Positions 27,784 through 39,458 of a stretch of 64,000 bases of DNA are shown piece after piece. The stretch lies in assembly GCA_016786765.1 (NCBI GenBank), contig JAEUUZ010000025.1, positions 1 through 64,000 on the forward strand, in the 5' to 3' direction. Each line of letters opens with the position of its first letter. Position 1 is the stretch's first letter. Source of the stretch: Chitinophagales bacterium. Its GTDB lineage: Bacteria > Bacteroidota > Bacteroidia > Chitinophagales > LD1. A program made the position numbers and the translations under genes. A model generated the notes under the pieces. That model saw only the letters and a program-made list of their open reading frames with translations. It was not told the origin of the DNA and did no database searches.

Positions 27784-27897
27784 CTACCTATTTATTTATG
27801 ATTTATGATTTTTTGATTTAAGATTTATCTCTATTTAAGATTTAGGATTTTTTGATTTAAGAATTAGTCCTCTTATTTTCAGTTTCTGTTTTTTGAT
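27784..27897. repeat. AT-rich degenerate repeat, GATTTAAGATTTA orientation
   Basis: The 114 bases between sufC and the four-helix-bundle gene are an array of decamer-like units, GATTTAAGATTTA, ATTTAAGATTTAGG and similar, with poly-T spacers. The same units occur in opposite orientation on the other side of the gene (28290-28382) and at 31348-31430. No gene or terminator is visible. Confidence 0.75.
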
Positions 27898-28263
27898 TTA
27901 AGATTTGCGGCTTTTTGCTCTTACTGTTTTGAGTGTTGCTGCAAAAATTTTCACCAATGCTGTATTCTCTTCTTTTATAATTTTCAATTTATGTTCTTCA
28001 ATAATCTTAGCTTCTTCTAAAAGTTCAAGCCAAAACAATGTTTCATCCGCCTCTTCCAACACCACGCTAATTTTATAACTAAAATCAGCATCCGATTTCG
28101 CCCGACAAGAAGCTCTGTAATTTGCACCAACAGAGCAACCCGACCTTATAATTTGTTTCCCTAATTCATAACCTACAATGGTCTTAGGAAAAGCATCTAC
28201 CAATATTACGATGCTAGTAGAAAACATCTTCGTACGTTCAAGTAATTCAAATTTATTCATCAT
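27898..28263 (-). CDS. Four-helix-bundle protein (S23 / TIGR02436 type)
   Basis: The 121 residue protein matches the small S23-like four-helix-bundle family: FELLERTKMFSTSIVILVDAFP, then YELGKQIIRSGCSVGANYRASCRAKS, DFSYKISVVLEEADETLFWLELLEEA and a final helix. These proteins were first noticed in intervening sequences of 23S rRNA genes and occur in many Bacteroidota; their job is unknown. Here the gene sits in the middle of the suf operon, in the same direction, bracketed by AT-rich repeats in inverted orientation. This points to insertion into the operon. Confidence 0.85.
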   Translation of the reverse strand: MMNKFELLERTKMFSTSIVILVDAFPKTIVGYELGKQIIRSGCSVGANYRASCRAKSDADFSYKISVVLEEADETLFWLELLEEAKIIEEHKLKIIKEENTALVKIFAATLKTVRAKSRKS

Positions 28264-28289
28264 TGGGGCTTATGCTGAACTAATTAATA

Positions 28290-28382
28290 GGTTATCTTCT
28301 CAAATCAAAAATCTTCCTTCTTAAATCTTAAATCCAAAAATCTTAAATCCTAAATCCTACCTCTTAAATCTTACATCATAAA
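28290..28382. repeat. AT-rich degenerate repeat, AAATCTTAAATC orientation
   Basis: These bases, just after the sufB stop, hold at least six units like CTTAAATCTTAAATCC and AAATCCTAAATCC. They are the reverse complement of the units at 27784-27897, so the four-helix-bundle gene lies between inverted arrays. Confidence 0.75.
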
Positions 28383-29828
28383 TCACCCCACACTGCCCTC
28401 AAGACTTATTCCTAATAGTTTCTGCGCCTCCACAGCAAACTCCATCGGCAATTGGCGAAACACTTCCTTACAATAGCCATTCACAATCATATTCACTGCT
28501 TCTTCTGTGCTCAAACCTCTTTGATTGCAATAGAACAACAAGTCCTCCCCTATTTTAGAAGTAGTTGCCTCGTGCTCTACATTTGCTGTTTTGTTTTTGA
28601 TATCCAAATACGGAAACGTATGCGCACCGCATTTATCGCCAATCAACAACGAATCGCACTGCGAGAAATTATACGCATTTTCAGCCGTTGCATTCACTTG
28701 CACCAAACCGCGATAAGCATTCTGCGATTTACCGGCAGAAATCCCCTTACTCACAATTCGGCTACGGGTATTTTTCCCGATGTGAATCATCTTCGTGCCT
28801 GTATCGGCTTGCTGAAAATTGTTGGTTACTGCCACCGAATAAAACTCGCCAATACTATTATCGCCTTTCAAAATACACGATGGATATTTCCACGTAATGG
28901 CCGAGCCCGTTTCCACTTGCGTCCAGCTTATCTTTGAATTATTCCCTTTGCACAAACCGCGCTTCGTCACAAAATTATAGATACCGCCTTTGCCCTCTTT
29001 ATCGCCCGGATACCAGTTCTGTACCGTAGAATACTTGATTTCCGCATTTTCCAGCGTTATCAACTCCACAACAGCCGCATGCAATTGGTTTTCATCGCGC
29101 TTCGGAGCTGTACAGCCCTCTAAGTAACTCACATACGAATTGTCATCAGCAATAATCAAGGTACGTTCAAACTGCCCCGTGTTCTCTGCATTAATTCTGA
29201 AATAAGTAGAGAGTTCCATCGGACAACGCACTCCCTTCGGAATGTAGACAAACGAACCATCCGAGAACACCGCAGCATTCAAAGCCGAGTAATAGTTATC
29301 ACGCACCGGCACCACCGATCCCAAGTATTGTTTCACCAATGCCGGATGATCTTGAATCGCCTCGGCAATCGAACAAAAAATAATGCCCTTCTCTTTCAAC
29401 GAAGATTTAAACGTAGTAAACACCGATTCCGAATCCATTACAAAATCCACCGCCACACCGGCCAATAGTTTTTGCTCCTCTTTCGGCAAGCCCAATTTAT
29501 CGTATACTTTCAAGATTTCCGGGTCCACCTCATCCAACGAATTCAACTTCGCCTTTTTCTTCGCCACCGCATAATAAATAATGTCTTGAAAATTAATCTC
29601 CGGAAAAGTCACATTCTGCCAAGTCGGCTGCTTCATTTTCAGCCAGTGGCGGTAAGCCTCCAAGCGCCAATTCAGCATCCATTCCGGCTCGTTCTTCTTG
29701 GCCGAAATAAAACGAACGGTATTTTCCGTCAACCCCTTCTCGGCAAACTCTTGCTCGATATCGGTTACGAAACCGTATTTATACTCGCCATCAATCTGTT
29801 GGGTTAATATTTCGTCTTGCTCAGCCAT
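28383..29828 (-). CDS. sufB: Fe-S cluster scaffold protein SufB
   Basis: The 481 residue protein carries the SufB landmarks: [24 protein letters not shown] at the N-terminus, [52 protein letters not shown], and [28 protein letters not shown] at the C-terminus. It is the first gene of the leftward suf operon and carries the scaffold site. The ATG at 29828 is preceded by about 40 bases of leader after a perfect -7 promoter element. Confidence 0.97.
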
Positions 29829-30150: not shown

Positions 30151-30154
30151 TGCA

Positions 30155-30180
30155 TTGGTTGGTGGCGGAACACCAACCAA
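30155..30180 (+). repeat. 26 bp hairpin repeat, copy a
   Basis: Ten-base arms TTGGTTGGTG and CACCAACCAA flank the loop GCGGAA. It is followed by AAGG, as are the other forward copies. Six copies (a-f) occur between 30155 and 33564. Confidence 0.85.
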
Positions 30181-30203
30181 AGGGACAAGCGCTGTCAAAC
30201 CGA

Positions 30204-30239
30204 TTATTTGCGCAAAACCCAAGTATAGTTTTTACAATT
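30204..30239 (-). pseudogene. Remnant of the 3' end of a lipoprotein gene
   Basis: On the minus strand this stretch translates as NCKNYTWVLRK followed by TAA. The intact lipoprotein gene at 31475-32011 ends in SYTNYTWVLRK-stop, so eight consecutive residues and the stop are shared. The remnant lies between hairpins a and b, and its 5' side ends exactly at hairpin b. It may be all that is left of a paralogous gene; alternatively the shared bases belong to the repeat itself. Confidence 0.5.
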
Positions 30240-30263
30240 GGTTGGTGGCGGAACACCTACCAA
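30238..30263 (+). repeat. 26 bp hairpin repeat, copy b
   Basis: The arms are TTGGTTGGTG and CACCTACCAA (one mismatch) around the loop GCGGAA, in the same orientation as copy a. It ends 30 bases past the stop of the leftward membrane-protein gene. Confidence 0.85.
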
Positions 30264-30293
30264 AGGAAAAGTAAGAAGAAGCAAAGACATTAA

Positions 30294-30872
30294 TTATAAA
30301 TCCTTGAATTTCCGGCTTGCAACATTGTAACTACAAGAATCCTTACTTGTTACAAAAATTATTGAATCGTATTTATCATAAACCTTAAGCGTACTATCAG
30401 AACCCCACAAATCGAAGAATACATCTTTATCAGCAAGCAATGTTCTACAGCTACCGGTATGAATAATAGTATTCTTAAACAAAAAATCATCTCTATATAT
30501 ATGAAAAACAGTGTTTGAAGATTTAATCTTGATACATTGAACATATGATCCAAAAAAACCTGGCGTATTAAATAAGTATTGAATAATAATAACCAAATAA
30601 AAAAACATGCATAATACCAATGAAAGGAATATGGAAAAGAATATAGCCCACCCCTTTGTTATTTTAAAACGAGATTGGGAGCTATCGTTCTTCATAAAAA
30701 AGCGATAAACTACCTTAAAGAATATTGCAATGATTAAAACATCATAAACAATTAATGCAATCAAAATGATAGAAAATAAGCTAGGGATAACTAAATATCG
30801 AACTTCCAGTAAAAACAACACAGCATGAAGCAATAATCCCAATATGATAAAGATTGTACGCCTCATTTTCAT
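30294..30872 (-). CDS. Membrane protein of unknown function
   Basis: The 192 residue protein has three hydrophobic segments in its first ~110 residues (about 5-25, 28-56 and 75-100), with a basic loop between the second and third, and then a soluble C-terminal domain of ~85 residues rich in beta strands (KSSNTVFHIYRDDFLF, FFDLWGSDSTLKVYDKYD). No family is recognised. Base composition is distinctly AT-rich with many ATA/AAT codons, unlike the flanking core genes. The gene is isolated between hairpins b and c, which are in inverted orientation, and looks like accessory cargo. Confidence 0.6.
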   Translation of the reverse strand: MKMRRTIFIILGLLLHAVLFLLEVRYLVIPSLFSIILIALIVYDVLIIAIFFKVVYRFFMKNDSSQSRFKITKGWAIFFSIFLSLVLCMFFYLVIIIQYLFNTPGFFGSYVQCIKIKSSNTVFHIYRDDFLFKNTIIHTGSCRTLLADKDVFFDLWGSDSTLKVYDKYDSIIFVTSKDSCSYNVASRKFKDL

Positions 30873-31154
30873 TGGATGATTTTAATATCGATAATACCTG
30901 CTTGTAGAAATGTTTTTCACGCTCGCTTTAATCTAAAATTAAACAAATTCCCTAACTAGCGCGAATGTTTTTCACTCGTTCTACCTTTTTCACATTTGAT
31001 AACGAGATACATAGCGACATAGTTTGTGACTTATATCAACTTAAAACCCATACCACATCCCAAAAGATGTCTCCATTTCCACTACCATTTTTAAATATAA
31101 TCCATATAATGCTTTATACAAACCCATTTATATTCAGTCATATTTCCCCTGTGT
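30873..31154. other. Gene-free stretch
   Basis: This AT-rich interval has only short open frames without coding character. The leftward gene's promoter should lie in its first 60 bases, but I see no clear TAnnTTTG. Nothing else is recognised. Confidence 0.5.
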
Positions 31155-31176
31155 TTGGTGTTCCGCCACCAACCAA
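31155..31176 (-). repeat. Hairpin repeat, copy c (inverted)
   Basis: The core TTGGTG-TTCCGC-CACCAA reads as the reverse complement of copies a and b, with the left arm shortened (TTTGGTG). The right side continues as ACCAATACTAACC, similar to the flank of copy e (ACCAACACTATAC). Confidence 0.75.
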
Positions 31177-31268
31177 TACTAACCAAAAAAGTTAAGAAAT
31201 GAATGGACGGTGATAACACCGACCATAAGTAAAGTGTCAGGTTAATTTATCAATGAAGCACAATGCCC

Positions 31269-31343
31269 GCGTGCGGGATGGCAGTGGAAATCCTTTGGCC
31301 ATTCCCATGGACAATGATTGCAACGTACAGCCCGATAACACGC
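31269..31343 (+). repeat. Nested palindromic element, copy 2
   Basis: It has the same 75-base length as copy 1, with outer GCGTG/CACGC, the shared GCAGTGGAAATCC block and an inner stem TTGGCCAT/ATGGACAA (one mismatch). The closing block ATTGCAACG-TACAGCCCGATAACACGC corresponds to copy 1's ATTGGAACG...GCGCGGTATCACGC. Confidence 0.7.
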
Positions 31344-31347
31344 TCAA

Positions 31348-31430
31348 ATTATAAATCATAAAGCTCAAATCACAAACTCCAAATCATAAATCCTCCCTTC
31401 TTAAATCGTAAATCAAAAAATCATACATCT
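31348..31430. repeat. AT-rich degenerate repeat, third array
   Basis: These bases are units such as AAATCATAAA, AAATCACAAAC, CTTAAATCGTAAATC, the same family as the two arrays in the suf operon. The array ends 6 bases before hairpin d. Confidence 0.65.
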
Positions 31431-31435
31431 TAATA

Positions 31436-31461
31436 TTGGTTGGTGACGGAACACCAACCAA
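31436..31461 (+). repeat. 26 bp hairpin repeat, copy d
   Basis: Perfect 10-base arms TTGGTTGGTG/CACCAACCAA enclose the loop ACGGAA. The hairpin ends 13 bases beyond the stop of the leftward lipoprotein gene. Confidence 0.85.
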
Positions 31462-31474
31462 AGTGGCAAATTCG

Positions 31475-32011
31475 TCATTTCCGCAGCACCCAAGTGTAGT
31501 TTGTATAACTGCTAGACGGAGATCCCTTTATAAATACGGTTGAATTTGGAAAATTAAGATAGTAAGCGATGTATGCACTATCGGTAACTGAACGAATATA
31601 ATAGGCACTATCGGTATTAAATACTTTCTCTAAAAAGAAAAGATTATCTGGCCGTTTTTCGCTTGTCTTCTCCTCAAACGCAATATAAGTACCTGCTCTT
31701 CCATTTCTATCCAAAACCCAATTTCCCAAATTATTGATGGTCATGTAATATTTCCCGCTTTCCGCTTCAATCAGTTTAATTTTTGCAATCTGACCAGTGC
31801 CCACCGCTAAACCATAAGGCGAAAAGCTAGCGCTCCCCGAAGTATTCGTATAAAAGTTCAAAGATTGATTGCTTGGTCCTATTGGTGAAAAAAGTGAGAT
31901 AGACCATTCACCGGCTAAAGAACTTTGTGCAGGTGCAGGTGTCTCTTTCTTGCACGACCAAAACGCAATAGCCAAAATAACAACAATAATACTTATATGC
32001 ATATGTTTCAT
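31475..32011 (-). CDS. Lipoprotein of unknown function
   Basis: The start is the ATG at 32011 (or 32002, three codons later), giving a lipoprotein signal MKHMHISIIVVILAIAFWSCKKE with the lipidated Cys after FWS. A longer frame from 32110 would begin inside hairpin e and is rejected. The ~160 residue mature domain (LAGEWSISLFSPIG, SGKYYMTINNLGNWVLDRNGRAG, YYIRSVTDSAYIAYYLN, ending NYTWVLRK) is beta-rich and recalls lipocalin-like or ricin-like lipoprotein domains of Bacteroidota, without firm assignment. The gene lies between hairpins d and e, which are inverted to each other. Confidence 0.65.
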   Translation of the reverse strand: MKHMHISIIVVILAIAFWSCKKETPAPAQSSLAGEWSISLFSPIGPSNQSLNFYTNTSGSASFSPYGLAVGTGQIAKIKLIEAESGKYYMTINNLGNWVLDRNGRAGTYIAFEEKTSEKRPDNLFFLEKVFNTDSAYYIRSVTDSAYIAYYLNFPNSTVFIKGSPSSSYTNYTWVLRK

Positions 32012-32088
32012 GGGCGAAAAACTTTTTATGCAATATAGTATTCCTTTTGAAATTGCAATAGCGTACAACATAAATGACAATTTCTCCT

Positions 32089-32114
32089 TTGGTTGGTGTT
32101 CCGCCACCAACCAA
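32089..32114 (-). repeat. 26 bp hairpin repeat, copy e (inverted)
   Basis: Perfect 10-base arms enclose the loop TTCCGC, the reverse complement of copy a. It lies 78 bases upstream of the lipoprotein start and closes an inverted pair with copy d. Confidence 0.85.
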
Positions 32115-32151
32115 CACTATACTCAAAGTTGATAGCATAATAAGAAAAAGA

Positions 32152-32185
32152 ATGGTTGGTGATACCACCCCAACTGTTCGGAAGA
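32152..32185 (+). repeat. Left terminal inverted repeat of the IS
   Basis: It begins ATGGTTGGTGAT and continues ACCACCCCAACTGTTCGG and then AAGA. The outer 12 bases match the right end except for two positions; the remaining 22 match perfectly. Confidence 0.8.
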
Positions 32186-32186
32186 C

Positions 32187-33356
32187 TTATGAAGAGTTGA
32201 AATTGAGAAAGTTGTCAACTTTTTTCGGGTCTCCTCCACACATTTTTACGAAATTTTTCACTAACTCTTTCTCTAGCTCCTGCACGAATTTCAGTTTCAT
32301 AATTTTATAACCATTCAAATTGTTTTTCTTTTTGTATACTAAAAGTAAAGTTGCAGCAATCAATGTAGCATACAACATTACTCTAATCCCATTTTCACTT
32401 CGATTAATTAAATGAGAGAAATTGAGCTCCTGTTTTAAAAATTTGAAGAACACTTCTATATCCCAGCGCTGTCTGTAAAGAGTAGTGATGCTTTCTGCAC
32501 TTAAATCATAAATATTTGACACAAAACATATCTGTTCATTAGTTGATTTCTGAACACATTTGATAAAGCGTATTGGATGCTTAGCTATTTTTGACCCCTC
32601 CGAAAACATATACACTACTGTATCTCTAATTATCAAAAGGGTACTTGTCTCTATGGGTTTGATAATACTATTTCCTGTTACTTCCTTTATCTTACTATTC
32701 GTATTGGCGCGAGTCACAAATGGAATCTTTTTTTCTGTTAAGGTGTCGTATGTTTTCCGAGAGTTAAGTCCCCTATCAAAAACATGAATACCTTTGTTTT
32801 TGTCTGGCTCAAATGAAAGAATAGTCTCTCTTAATGCAACGTTTTCGCTGTTGAAATTTTGCTCGGAATAAAATTTTGCTACAATAGGAAGATCGGAATA
32901 CCCAATCGTAAATTTGAGTTGGCGCATATGGTCTGCATCTCCACCTTTTAGGTGATACCCGACTTTTAATAACTTGCTTGACAATGCTACTATTGTAGAA
33001 TCAAACCGAATGATGGAAGGTGTCTTTTCGTGTAAAAGTTCACCATATATTTCCAAACAGCAGTGATATATTTTTTCAAAATATACTGGGTTTATTGTGC
33101 TTAATCTTTCACTGATTGAGCTGTAGCGAATTTGCTGTTTCTTCCTTCCCGCATTAAGTATATTAAACCCTATTGATTCATATGCGGATTCCATTGTGCG
33201 TAAACTATTATCCTTGTGCGAAAGAATACAGTGAAGAAGTAACTTGAAAACTAATTCGCCTTGAAGTTTTTTACTGTATCGATTAACTGCTGTATCATCA
33301 GCAAGTTCTGTTAAAAGAGACTCTGGAAGTAGCGATAATATTTTTGAGACATCCAT
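32187..33356 (-). CDS. IS4-family DDE transposase
   Basis: The start is the ATG at 33356 (MDVSKILSLLPESLLTEL), giving 389 residues; the upstream TTG frame adds nothing. The DDE residues are visible: first Asp in IIRFDSTIVALSSKLL, second Asp in IHVFDRGLNSRKTYDTL, and the Glu in the family YREK-type motif LYRQRWDIEVFFKFLKQEL (Y-x2-R-x3-E-x6-K). A basic N-terminal DNA-binding region precedes them. The gene appears intact, so the element may be active. It fills nearly the whole element. Confidence 0.92.
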   Translation of the reverse strand: MDVSKILSLLPESLLTELADDTAVNRYSKKLQGELVFKLLLHCILSHKDNSLRTMESAYESIGFNILNAGRKKQQIRYSSISERLSTINPVYFEKIYHCCLEIYGELLHEKTPSIIRFDSTIVALSSKLLKVGYHLKGGDADHMRQLKFTIGYSDLPIVAKFYSEQNFNSENVALRETILSFEPDKNKGIHVFDRGLNSRKTYDTLTEKKIPFVTRANTNSKIKEVTGNSIIKPIETSTLLIIRDTVVYMFSEGSKIAKHPIRFIKCVQKSTNEQICFVSNIYDLSAESITTLYRQRWDIEVFFKFLKQELNFSHLINRSENGIRVMLYATLIAATLLLVYKKKNNLNGYKIMKLKFVQELEKELVKNFVKMCGGDPKKVDNFLNFNSS

Positions 33357-33436
33357 GAAGCAAATCTTATCCAATAGATTCGCTCATGTGCAATTTTGAT
33401 TCCCTTAGTTATCCTGATTATCAAAAGTTTGTACTA

Positions 33437-33470
33437 TCTTCCGAACAGTTGGGGTGGTTTCACGAACCAT
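33437..33470 (-). repeat. Right terminal inverted repeat of the IS
   Basis: It is the reverse complement of the left end with two mismatches (positions 7 and 12 from the outer edge). It lies about 80 bases upstream of the transposase start. Confidence 0.8.
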
Positions 33471-33538
33471 GGAGTTGGAAAACCACCTCCGCCAGCGGAG
33501 GACAGGGAGCATTCTACTTCGTTTCAAAATTTAAAATT

Positions 33539-33564
33539 CTGGTTGGTGACGGAACACCAACCAG
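33539..33564 (+). repeat. 26 bp hairpin repeat, copy f
   Basis: The arms are CTGGTTGGTG and CACCAACCAG, loop ACGGAA. The outermost pair is C:G where the other copies have T:A, so pairing is kept by a double change. Confidence 0.85.
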
Positions 33565-33570
33565 CGGGGA

Positions 33571-34395
33571 AATTTCACCACCTCCGTCTCCGCCAAAGCG
33601 CGGAGCCACCTCCGCCCGCGGAGGACAGGGAGCATTCTGCTTTGTTTCAAAATTTCGTTTAAGGGTTGGTAGGTGCTAGTCCTTGTCCCCCGCTAGCGGG
33701 GGGTAGGGGGGTGGTTCTTTTTTTCAATAGCAGCTATTGTATCTTCTATCCGTTCAATCACTTTATGGAGTTGAGTTAAAACATCATCATCATCAAATCG
33801 CAAAACAGTGAATCCTGCTGCAGTTAAATCGGCATCTTTCTTTGCATCCTTTATAATTGTTTCCTCCCATTGATGCGTTAATCCATCTACTTCAATTACA
33901 AGTTTTAATTCCATGCACATAAAATCTGCAATGTAGTTGAGCACAGGTCGTTCCCTACGGAACGTATAGCCTTTCATGCCTTTGGCCCGTAATGCGTATT
34001 TCCACAAACAGGCTTCGGCCTTGGTCATGTTCTTTCGCAAATGGTTGGCGAAGGGTTGTAGGGTTTTGTTGTAGGCGTAAAGATTTTCTTTATCGGCTTT
34101 CATGTTTCTAAAATAAAAAAAGGAATGGGATGTTTAAGCACCACCTCCGTCTCCGCCAAAGCGCGGAGCCACCTCCGCCTGCGGAGGACAGGGAGCGTTC
34201 TGCATCATTTCTAAATTTCGTTTAAGGGTTGGTAGGTGCTAGTCCTTGTCCCCCGCTGGCGGAGCCTGTCCCGCTTTGCGGGAGGTAGGGGGTGGTAAGT
34301 ATGCTCAAATAATTTTTTCATATGAAGAAGAGACAGATGCTTCATCTAAAAAATTATGTATTCTTTTTTTGTTATCGCTTACTGGTTATACTTTC
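33571..34395. repeat. Tandem repeat unit 1 (825 bp)
   Basis: The unit starts with a GC-rich palindromic block (CACCTCCG...GGAGGACAGGGAGC), then a leader with TTGGTAGGTGCTA, a CCCCCGCTAGCGGGGG palindrome, and a DUF559 gene (33693-34103). A second GC-rich block (34141-34196), leader and palindrome follow (34224-34294) with a ~100 base non-coding payload (about 34295-34395) instead of a gene. Unit 2 repeats the same order. No further gene is seen in 34104-34395. Confidence 0.8.
33693..34103 (-). CDS. DUF559 (Vsr-like, PD-(D/E)xK) endonuclease-domain protein, copy 1
   Basis: The 136 residue protein has the whole DUF559 core: AEACLWKYALRAKGMKGYTFRRERPV, then YIADFMCMELKLVIEVDGLTHQ (D-x-n-E-x-D, the nuclease-fold acids), DLTAAGFTVLRFDD. 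Copy 2 (34501-34929) differs by six residues up to the shared HPPTP. The stop TAG (33693-33695) lies at the centre of the CCCCCGCTAGCGGGGG palindrome, and the last residues HPPTPR are encoded by the repeat. Such proteins are related to very-short-patch-repair endonucleases; the DNA target and partner are unknown. Confidence 0.85.
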   Translation of the reverse strand: MKADKENLYAYNKTLQPFANHLRKNMTKAEACLWKYALRAKGMKGYTFRRERPVLNYIADFMCMELKLVIEVDGLTHQWEETIIKDAKKDADLTAAGFTVLRFDDDDVLTQLHKVIERIEDTIAAIEKKNHPPTPR

Positions 34396-35176
34396 AATTT
34401 CACCACCTCCGTCTCCGCCAAAGCGCGGAGCCACCTCCGCCCGCGGAGGACAGGGAGCGTTCGGCTTCGTTTTAAAATTTCGTTGAAGGGTTGGTAGGTG
34501 CTAATCCTTGTCCCCCGCTAGCGGGGGGGTAGGGGGGTGTTTCTTATTTTCAATCGCAACTATTGTATCTTCTATCCGTTCAATCACTTTGTGCAGTTGA
34601 GTTAAAACCTCTTCATCATCAAATCGCAAAACAGTGAATCCTGCAGCAGTTAAATCGGCATCTTTCTTTGCATCCTTTATAATTGTTTCCTCCCATTGAT
34701 GCGTTAATCCATCTACTTCAATTACAAGTTTTAATTCCATGCACATAAAATCGGCAATGTAGTTGAGCACAGGTCGTTCCCTACGGAACGTATAGCCTTT
34801 CATGCCTTTGGCCCGTAATGCGTATTTCCACAAACAGGCTTCGGCCATGGTCATGTTCTTTCGCAAATGGTTGGCGAAGGGTTGTAGGGTTTTGTTGTAG
34901 GCGTAAAGATTTTCTTTATCGGCTTTCATGTTTCTAAAATAAAAAAAAGGAATGAGATGTTTGAGCACTACCTCCGCCTGCGGAGGACAAGGAGCGTTCG
35001 GCTTCAATTCTAAATTGCGTTAAAGGGATGGTAGGTGCTAATCTTTCTCCCCCGCTGGCGGGGGGTAGGGGGTGGTATTGATGCTCAAATAATCAATTCA
35101 CAAGAAGAAATGCCTACTACATCATCTAAAAAAATTATGTACTCTTTTTTTGTTACGCTTACTGGATATGCTATTT
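34396..35176. repeat. Tandem repeat unit 2 (~781 bp)
   Basis: It has the same order as unit 1: GC-rich block (34402-34456), leader, CCCCCGCTAGCGGGGG palindrome, DUF559 gene, a shorter GC block (34969-34995), leader, palindrome (35047 onward) and the second non-coding payload. The gene halves of the two units are nearly identical, while the non-coding payloads (about 34295-34395 and 35077-35176) are visibly more divergent. The interval 34930-35182 has no gene. Confidence 0.8.
34501..34929 (-). CDS. DUF559 (Vsr-like) endonuclease-domain protein, copy 2
   Basis: The start is the ATG at 34929 (MKADKENLYAYNKTLQPF), matching copy 1; an upstream frame to 35007 is repeat translation. The 142 residue product equals copy 1 except for six substitutions (for example NMTM for NMTK and FDDEEV for FDDDDV) and its C-terminus, HPPTPPLAGDKD. 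One extra G in the palindrome's G-run on the plus strand (seven instead of six) shifts the frame past the CTAG centre, so translation runs six residues further into the palindrome and the leader. Confidence 0.85.
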   Translation of the reverse strand: MKADKENLYAYNKTLQPFANHLRKNMTMAEACLWKYALRAKGMKGYTFRRERPVLNYIADFMCMELKLVIEVDGLTHQWEETIIKDAKKDADLTAAGFTVLRFDDEEVLTQLHKVIERIEDTIVAIENKKHPPTPPLAGDKD

Positions 35177-35182
35177 AGTATG

Positions 35183-35240
35183 ACCACCTCCGTCTCCGCC
35201 AAAGCGCGGAGCCACCTCCGCCAGCGGAGGACAGGGAGCA
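35183..35240. repeat. GC-rich palindromic block, terminal partial copy
   Basis: The block ACCACCTCCGTCTCCGCC... to GGACAGGGAGC repeats the start of units 1 and 2 and ends the tandem array. It holds CTCCGC/GCGGAG and CCTCCGC/GCGGAGG inverted pairs. Confidence 0.75.
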
Positions 35241-35258
35241 TTCCGTTCCATTAAGTTT

Positions 35259-38756: not shown

Positions 38757-39029
38757 ATGAAAATTATGGATGCAAAAGTTACCCTAAGTTTTGATGAAGA
38801 TGTGATTGTTCAGGCCAAAGAATTTGCAGCGAAGAATAATATAAGTCTTTCTCGACTTACCGAATTTTTATTGAAAAAGGCAATCAGTAAAACCTATTCA
38901 TCGTTAGATGAACTTCCGGTTTCCGATTGGGTAATGCAAGTTAGTGAAGGTGAGGTGGGATATGTTCGTCAGCCCAAATCCAACAAAGCATTGAAGAAAG
39001 CATTTTATACTAAAAAGAAGTTGAAGTAA
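38757..39029 (+). CDS. Antitoxin of a VapBC-type pair (DUF6364-like)
   Basis: The 90 residue protein has the ribbon-helix-helix start MDAKVTLSFDEDVIVQAKEFAAKNNISLSRLTEFLLKKAI, typical of DUF6364/VapB-like antitoxins, and a basic tail (KSNKALKKAFYTKKKLK). The PIN-domain gene starts right at its stop codon, so the two form a toxin-antitoxin operon. An ATG three codons inside (38766) is the alternative start. Confidence 0.75.
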   Translation: MKIMDAKVTLSFDEDVIVQAKEFAAKNNISLSRLTEFLLKKAISKTYSSLDELPVSDWVMQVSEGEVGYVRQPKSNKALKKAFYTKKKLK

Positions 39030-39458
39030 GTGCGAATCTTTCTGGATGCGAACATTTTGGTTTCGGTGTTGTGCAACGAATACCCATTGTTTACTTATTC
39101 TTCACGGGTATTGAGCTTAGCAGATTCAAATCGTTTTGAAGTGTATACTTCGCCATTGTGTTTAGCTATAGCCTATTATTTTGCTGAAAAGAAGAGTGGT
39201 AAAGCTTTGGCAAGGAAAAAGATAGCAATACTAAGTGCCAAAATAAATTGTACTACAATGGATAGCCAAGTTGTGCAACATACATACATGAATAAATCGA
39301 TTGTGGATTTTGAAGATGGACTACAGTACTATTCTGCATTAGGGTCTAAGTGTAAATGTATTGTAACTCAAGATGTAGGTGATTATTACTTTTCAGACTT
39401 AGAAGTATTACCTGCTGAATTATTTTTGCTGAAATATGTTGTGAAAAAGGCAAAATGA
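39030..39458 (+). CDS. PIN-domain toxin (VapC-like)
   Basis: The 142 residue protein starts with a GTG directly after the antitoxin's TAA. The PIN-domain acids are visible: FLDANILVSVLCNEYP at the start (Asp6), then DFEDGLQYYSALGSKCKCIVTQDVGDYY near the end, with the usual E-D-A-like region replaced by EDGLQ and the final acid in TQD. PIN toxins cleave RNA, often tRNA. Overlap-free, zero-spacing coupling is typical of type II systems. Confidence 0.8.
   Translation: MRIFLDANILVSVLCNEYPLFTYSSRVLSLADSNRFEVYTSPLCLAIAYYFAEKKSGKALARKKIAILSAKINCTTMDSQVVQHTYMNKSIVDFEDGLQYYSALGSKCKCIVTQDVGDYYFSDLEVLPAELFLLKYVVKKAK

Follow-up and report, generated by a model that had tools for sequence, protein, structure and literature searches.

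DUF559 genes of Bacteroidota are linked to palindromes that flank them, an association that is strongly supported across the phylum, and the units formed by such a gene and its palindromes look mobile. The reading that we favor, with a probability of a little over one half, is that these units are selfish elements, driven by a nuclease and ended by palindromes, which spread by homing-like cutting and copying. Two of them form a cluster in a 64,000-nt stretch of a contig from a Chitinophagales bacterium, which is called the window here.

In the cluster (window 33571-35240), a unit of approximately 0.8 kb is duplicated in tandem, and the parts follow one another in the order half element, R1, DUF559 gene 1, R2, payload 1, R3, gene 2, R4, payload 2, half element (Table 1). 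The building block is a single element of approximately 150 bp, composed of tail, palindrome, spacer (the "leader"), palindrome and tail. The GC-block motif CCTCCGCCNGCGGAGGACAGGGAGC is present six times, all inside 33486-35239, and the leader motif three times at up to 3 mismatches, where 100 shuffles gave an expectation of 0 for either one; a fourth, more diverged leader copy lies at approximately 35026-35055. The payload was not found in the genome beyond its two cluster copies, and a search of the window matched no Rfam family in the cluster.

Table 1. Features of the DUF559-palindrome cluster, in window positions
Feature	Position	Strand	Description
Half-copy of palindrome element, left cluster edge	33483..33532	+	left palindrome and start of spacer; 94% identity to reference copy
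Palindrome-pair element R1	33571..33718	+	tail CACCACCTCCG; left palindrome CCTCCGCCCGCGGAGG at 33609-33624; spacer/leader; right palindrome CCCCCGCTAGCGGGGG at 33687-33702; tail GGTAGGGGGGTGGT
DUF559 gene copy 1	33693..34103	-	136 aa; predicted PD-(D/E)XK/Vsr-like fold; Pfam E 6e-31; stop codon within right palindrome of R1
Palindrome-pair element R2	34139..34298	+	nested hairpin in right palindrome
Payload 1	34299..34398	.	approximately 100 bp, non-coding; sole other genomic copy is payload 2
Palindrome-pair element R3	34401..34541	+	95.7% identical to R1 (the pairs preceding the two genes); CCCCCGCTAGCGGGGG at 34512-34527
DUF559 gene copy 2	34501..34929	-	142 aa from homologous ATG; DNA 97.4% identical to copy 1 over 128 codons; reads through palindrome
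Palindrome-pair element R4	34966..35077	+	deletion variant without nested hairpins
Payload 2	35078..35180	.	81% identical to payload 1
Half-copy R5, right cluster edge	35183..35243	+	left palindrome and start of spacer; 98% identity

The motif counts, the shuffles and the identities between the units bear out the earlier note on this DNA, which had described tandem units of about 0.8 kb with DUF559 genes and palindromes, while several of its details are revised. GC block, leader and palindrome, which it had listed as separate parts, are all present but together make up the one element described above. Leader and palindrome do occur four times, as it had counted, but the payload-side palindromes are variants (CCCCCGCTGGCGGAGCC..., CCCCCGCTGGCGGGGG) that differ from the gene-side ones, and the fourth leader has diverged. 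The coupling of gene to palindrome is real; however, both genes lie on the minus strand, and the CCCCCGCTAGCGGGGG palindrome that was said to precede the gene is therefore 3' of it.

Other repeats and mobile genes are found around the cluster. An apparently complete insertion sequence adjoins it (32152-33470), in which a DDE transposase ORF (32187-33374) stands between inverted repeats of 34 nt with 94% complementarity. Within window 30154-33567, at least five copies, some of them inverted, belong to another family of palindromic repeats, TTGGTTGGTGRCGGAACACCAACCAA. At 27793-28385, an ORF (27898-28263) for a four-helix-bundle-like protein of the 23S rRNA intervening-sequence type is flanked by AAATCTTAAATC-type repeats, perhaps another coupling of gene and repeat, and neighboring DUF6364 and PIN-domain genes at 38757-39458 are a probable toxin-antitoxin pair.

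Elsewhere in the same genome the palindrome element brings its total to about ten copies, which is not a high copy number. Inverted palindromes paired across a spacer are seen both in the cluster (R1-R4) and as a solo copy without DUF559 (G000:C60:146912-147035; positions 1880-2036 of locus L032). The third DUF559 gene of the genome (C46:210885) also lies between inverted palindromes, but these have another sequence, CTCCCCTCCTTTCCAAGGAGGGGTTGGGGTGGT ... ACCACCCCTGCCCCTCCTTGGAAAGGAGGGGAG. Directly after the window palindromes stands the tag GTAG, and at other DUF559 loci TTAG, TTTAG, CTAG or TTGG is found.

Both window genes match Pfam DUF559 well above its cut-off (106.9 and 107.3 bits against 20.6), and the residues conserved in the protein include D60, E71 and D73, with H77 nearly so. 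An AF2 model of the protein (pLDDT 83.9) matches structure 3HRL (Z 15.4), the catalytic domain of the homing endonuclease I-Bth0305I (Z 11.8; Foldseek E 4e-4 for PDB 3R3P) and Vsr (Z 10.5); the next matches, Holliday-junction resolvases and TnsA, follow at about Z 7. PADLOC returned weak matches only, one of them to a homing endonuclease model (E 1.5e-4). We thus predict from the model that DUF559 is a putative nuclease of the PD-(D/E)XK fold (EDxHD), bearing in mind that a predicted fold is no proof of cutting. The comparison with homing endonucleases, proposed from the letters of the window, is backed by this predicted fold and by the site-specific occupied and empty alleles described below. 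In a report on Caulobacter (PMC12907096), the DUF559 protein VsrA is responsible for an SOS response in a methyltransferase mutant, and a repair function is the role proposed for it.

DUF559 is present in 222 of the 392 Bacteroidota genomes sampled, at up to 11 copies each, and most of 30 relatives retrieved on the basis of sequence have such palindromes on both sides. In a sequence-agnostic comparison that took 643 ORFs of the same loci as controls, an inverted repeat scoring at least 16 spanned the gene for 35 of 84 DUF559 ORFs but for only 11 controls (odds ratio 41, p 5e-27). A pyrimidine/purine palindrome stood on both sides of 32 of 59 independent DUF559 genes, against 2/643 controls (Fisher p 1e-36) and 0/19 RAYT genes; the counts for at least one side were 52/59, 50/643 and 4/19, respectively. 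These independent samples come from across the phylum and are a non-random set, being the better-scoring DUF559 matches. Because this class of palindrome was defined post hoc, after the flanks had been read, the count was repeated on 20 unseen loci, mostly from previously sampled genomes, and gave 11/20 for both sides and 16/20 for at least one. The palindrome families vary between DUF559 loci, and copies of the flank sequences elsewhere in the same locus are modestly enriched (15/75 against 50/546, p 0.008). A lack of palindrome enrichment near DUF559 genes in other genomes had been named as the outcome that would refute the coupling, and the association survived this test in both samples (32/59 and 11/20 against 2/643).

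The abundance of palindromes over whole genomes was rejected as evidence for DUF559. The count of CCCCTCN{2,10}GAGGGG per genome does correlate with DUF559 (rho 0.43, 392 genomes), but we dropped this correlation because it was lost when two palindromes were subtracted for each DUF559 gene and because RAYT genes co-vary with it. That subtraction is too strict, since many DUF559 palindromes fall outside the CCCCTCN{2,10}GAGGGG pattern. The idea that DUF559 drives the spread of solitary palindromes is not supported by these counts, which are uncorrelated once the gene-flanking palindromes are taken away.

DUF559 genes with their flanking palindromes are also found in frame inside conserved genes. 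The hosts include RecG, MetH, LeuRS and HsdR (identified by NCBIfam) and, as named from sequence, UvrC, HsdM, a type III modification gene, restriction-methylase genes, AddA/UvrD-type helicases and an acyl-CoA mutase. The in-gene copies are continuous open frames in which no stretch was recognized as an intein; free-standing copies are common as well. In LeuRS, the DUF559 inserts of different genomes lie at two distinct sites (locus L226 of genome G081; loci L100, L102 and L111).

RecG offers the clearest comparison of occupied and empty sites. In the genus of genome G085, which we take to be Flavobacterium, the motifs DEQHRFGVEQRSKLW and VMTATPIPRT enclose the insert in four genomes; in 34 loci the site is empty and scarless and has an 8-residue linker. 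A RecG tree with all occupied hosts in a single clade is rejected (AU p 2e-5), occupancy has changed at least three times, and no fewer than three distinct host lineages have the insert at exactly the same codon position. On the sequences compared, three gains would be more parsimonious than one gain followed by about six scarless losses. The RecG junctions can be placed only to within a few bases, and neither a target-site duplication nor a precise end of the insert could be established. One and the same loop of HsdR holds two DUF559 lineages with 36% identity to each other, in hosts whose identity is 79-81%. The MetH inserts have diverged about as much as their hosts, and some insertions may therefore be old and vertically inherited.

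Copies within genomes point the same way as the RecG comparison. On one Splendidivirga contig, the DUF559 genes of two loci approximately 525 kb apart (L040 and L045) lie in a common 584-bp block with 89.6% identity, outside which the sequences are unrelated. Genome G390 holds two 540-bp DUF559 units (locus L173, 7732-8271 and 10983-11522) that are 99.6% identical and 3.25 kb apart, and that we regard as a good candidate for an active element. At a site downstream of mnmE, DUF559 is missing from two congeners, in which the spacer has diverged too far to show precise boundaries. The number of tandem units beside DUF559 differs in loci L143 and L155; among the indels between close pairs, such tandem-unit changes were all that was seen beside DUF559, and no clean solo insertion was found. 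In the DUF559 tree, the window copies cluster with loci titled KSB1, Desantisbacteria, Syntrophaceae and Chlorobiota, of which single members may be misbinned since these loci are metagenome bins, and DUF559 sequences tend to group by insertion site. Against the possibility, raised in the earlier note, that DUF559 merely follows species phylogeny, the near-identical copies, the tree and the RecG changes speak for amplification inside genomes and for more than simple descent with the host species.

The homing-like reading builds on the palindrome association, the separate copies, the in-frame insertions with their empty sites, the three or more changes at RecG and the predicted fold. The window element would be a DUF559 nuclease gene set between inverted pyrimidine/purine palindromes with G-rich tails, accompanied by non-autonomous palindrome pairs of the same family. 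Most likely the nuclease would nick or cut an unoccupied target, and recombination by the host would then fill the break with a copy of the unit and its palindromes, in the manner of homing; we infer the cutting, its target, the copying that it drives and the role of the palindromes as recognition or end sequences. In-frame insertions would survive because palindromes and gene are translated together with the host gene and add a loop that the protein tolerates. The tandem in the window probably arose later, most likely when the repeated palindromes recombined or replication slipped between them. Several results sit less well with this scheme: no target-site duplication or exact boundary was fixed, the divergence of the MetH inserts would also fit ancient inheritance and later loss, a search of the one congener genome gave no empty counterpart of the window locus, and DUF559 counts after subtraction leave the solitary palindromes unexplained.

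The closest rival is a hairpin-directed transposition of the REPIN type, which we consider unlikely but well worth keeping in mind. DUF559 would here recognize the palindromes as hairpins or cruciforms in single-stranded or supercoiled DNA and cut their ends, so that pairs with or without the gene would be excised or copied, in the way that RAYT acts on REPINs. Palindromes that bracket the gene, fixed-spacer pairs that also occur solo (L032), gene copies at unrelated places and palindrome families that differ among DUF559 loci would all be expected of such a process, but it does not by itself account for the repeated occupation of one RecG codon position, and it is at odds with the small number of copies in the window's genome and with corrected genome-wide counts that do not track DUF559. 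A related proposal would make DUF559 a mere passenger between palindromes that RAYT (Y1) transposases spread. Palindrome-rich genomes do usually hold both families (29/30 each), and the likeness to REP-associated transposases that had been suggested for the cluster is true of the layout only; however, 19 RAYT loci in such genomes have other palindromes and none of them (0/19) is bracketed by the DUF559 type, which weakens a part for RAYTs, and G390, which has recent DUF559 copies, does not appear in the set of genomes that match Y1. We therefore hold the passenger proposal to be very improbable. The Bacteroidota RAYT genes examined (L235-L253) have palindrome families of their own, GACCCC..GGGGTC, GCCCTGAAAGGGC and GGCTTTAGCC, which differ from genome to genome.

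Two further explanations would dispense with present mobility altogether. Under one, a domain was inserted long ago and then ordinarily inherited, with units kept or lost by host lineages. It would explain why MetH inserts differ across families about as much as their hosts do, and why DUF559 groups by host gene; it would not explain the near-identity of the two G390 copies, the scattering of scarless empty RecG sites among occupied ones, the unrelated DUF559 lineages in one HsdR loop or the members assigned to several phyla in the clade of the window copies, and we find it improbable. Under the other, DUF559 is a Vsr-type repair enzyme useful to its host, and the palindromes are only transcription terminators. 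Although the predicted fold is Vsr-like and VsrA is linked to DNA damage responses (PMC12907096), terminators are not expected in frame inside MetH, RecG and LeuRS, the palindromes lie upstream as well as downstream, and control genes mostly lack them, so that this explanation has in our view only a slim chance of being right. The homing-like element remains the reading that we prefer.

The DUF559 family is widespread and has no assigned function; as the engine of a palindromic element it would likely gain one. We found no prior description of a link between DUF559 (PF04480, COG2852) and palindromes in open-access titles and abstracts, where absence is no proof of novelty. If DUF559 does power such an element, these units would be a nuclease-driven counterpart to REPIN/RAYT systems, and the inserts in RecG, MetH and LeuRS would be natural, testable cases of an unspliced selfish gene in essential proteins; with its occupied as well as empty alleles, RecG allows a direct test of homing. 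More tentatively, DUF559 elements might form a separate class of bacterial mobile element, in which a Vsr-fold nuclease with palindromic ends moves both itself and palindrome pairs and colonizes essential proteins in frame, unspliced.

Among known systems, REPIN/RAYT palindromes end in a conserved GTAG (or CGTC) tag. With these systems (REPtrons; GTAG REPs, PMC3733652) the DUF559 elements share a small gene flanked by palindromes, inverted pairs with a spacer, non-autonomous solo copies and tandem arrays, whereas they differ in having a predicted PD-(D/E)XK nuclease instead of a Y1 HUH transposase, pyrimidine/purine palindromes, in-frame insertions inside conserved genes and about ten copies in place of a high copy number. 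MITEs are likewise short, bounded by inverted repeats and present as non-autonomous copies, but no classical transposase is seen here, and the junctions are ambiguous by a few bases with no target duplication fixed. The Vsr mismatch endonuclease and Caulobacter VsrA resemble the window proteins in fold, and VsrA in its DUF559 domain, while the available text on VsrA describes neither palindromes nor mobility (PMC12907096). The Rickettsia palindromic elements are also palindromic and tolerated in frame in protein genes, as are the inserts in RecG, MetH, LeuRS, HsdR and UvrC, but the DUF559 inserts carry a nuclease-family gene of their own; to our knowledge, the Rickettsia elements encode no nuclease. 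The Vsr-like (EDxHD) homing endonucleases such as I-Bth0305I (PDB 3R3P) are similar in predicted fold (Z 11.8), in having occupied and empty alleles at one exact site and in the grouping of nucleases by insertion site; in contrast to them, DUF559 has no recognized intron or intein, and appears to stay in the protein as an extra loop bounded by palindromes.
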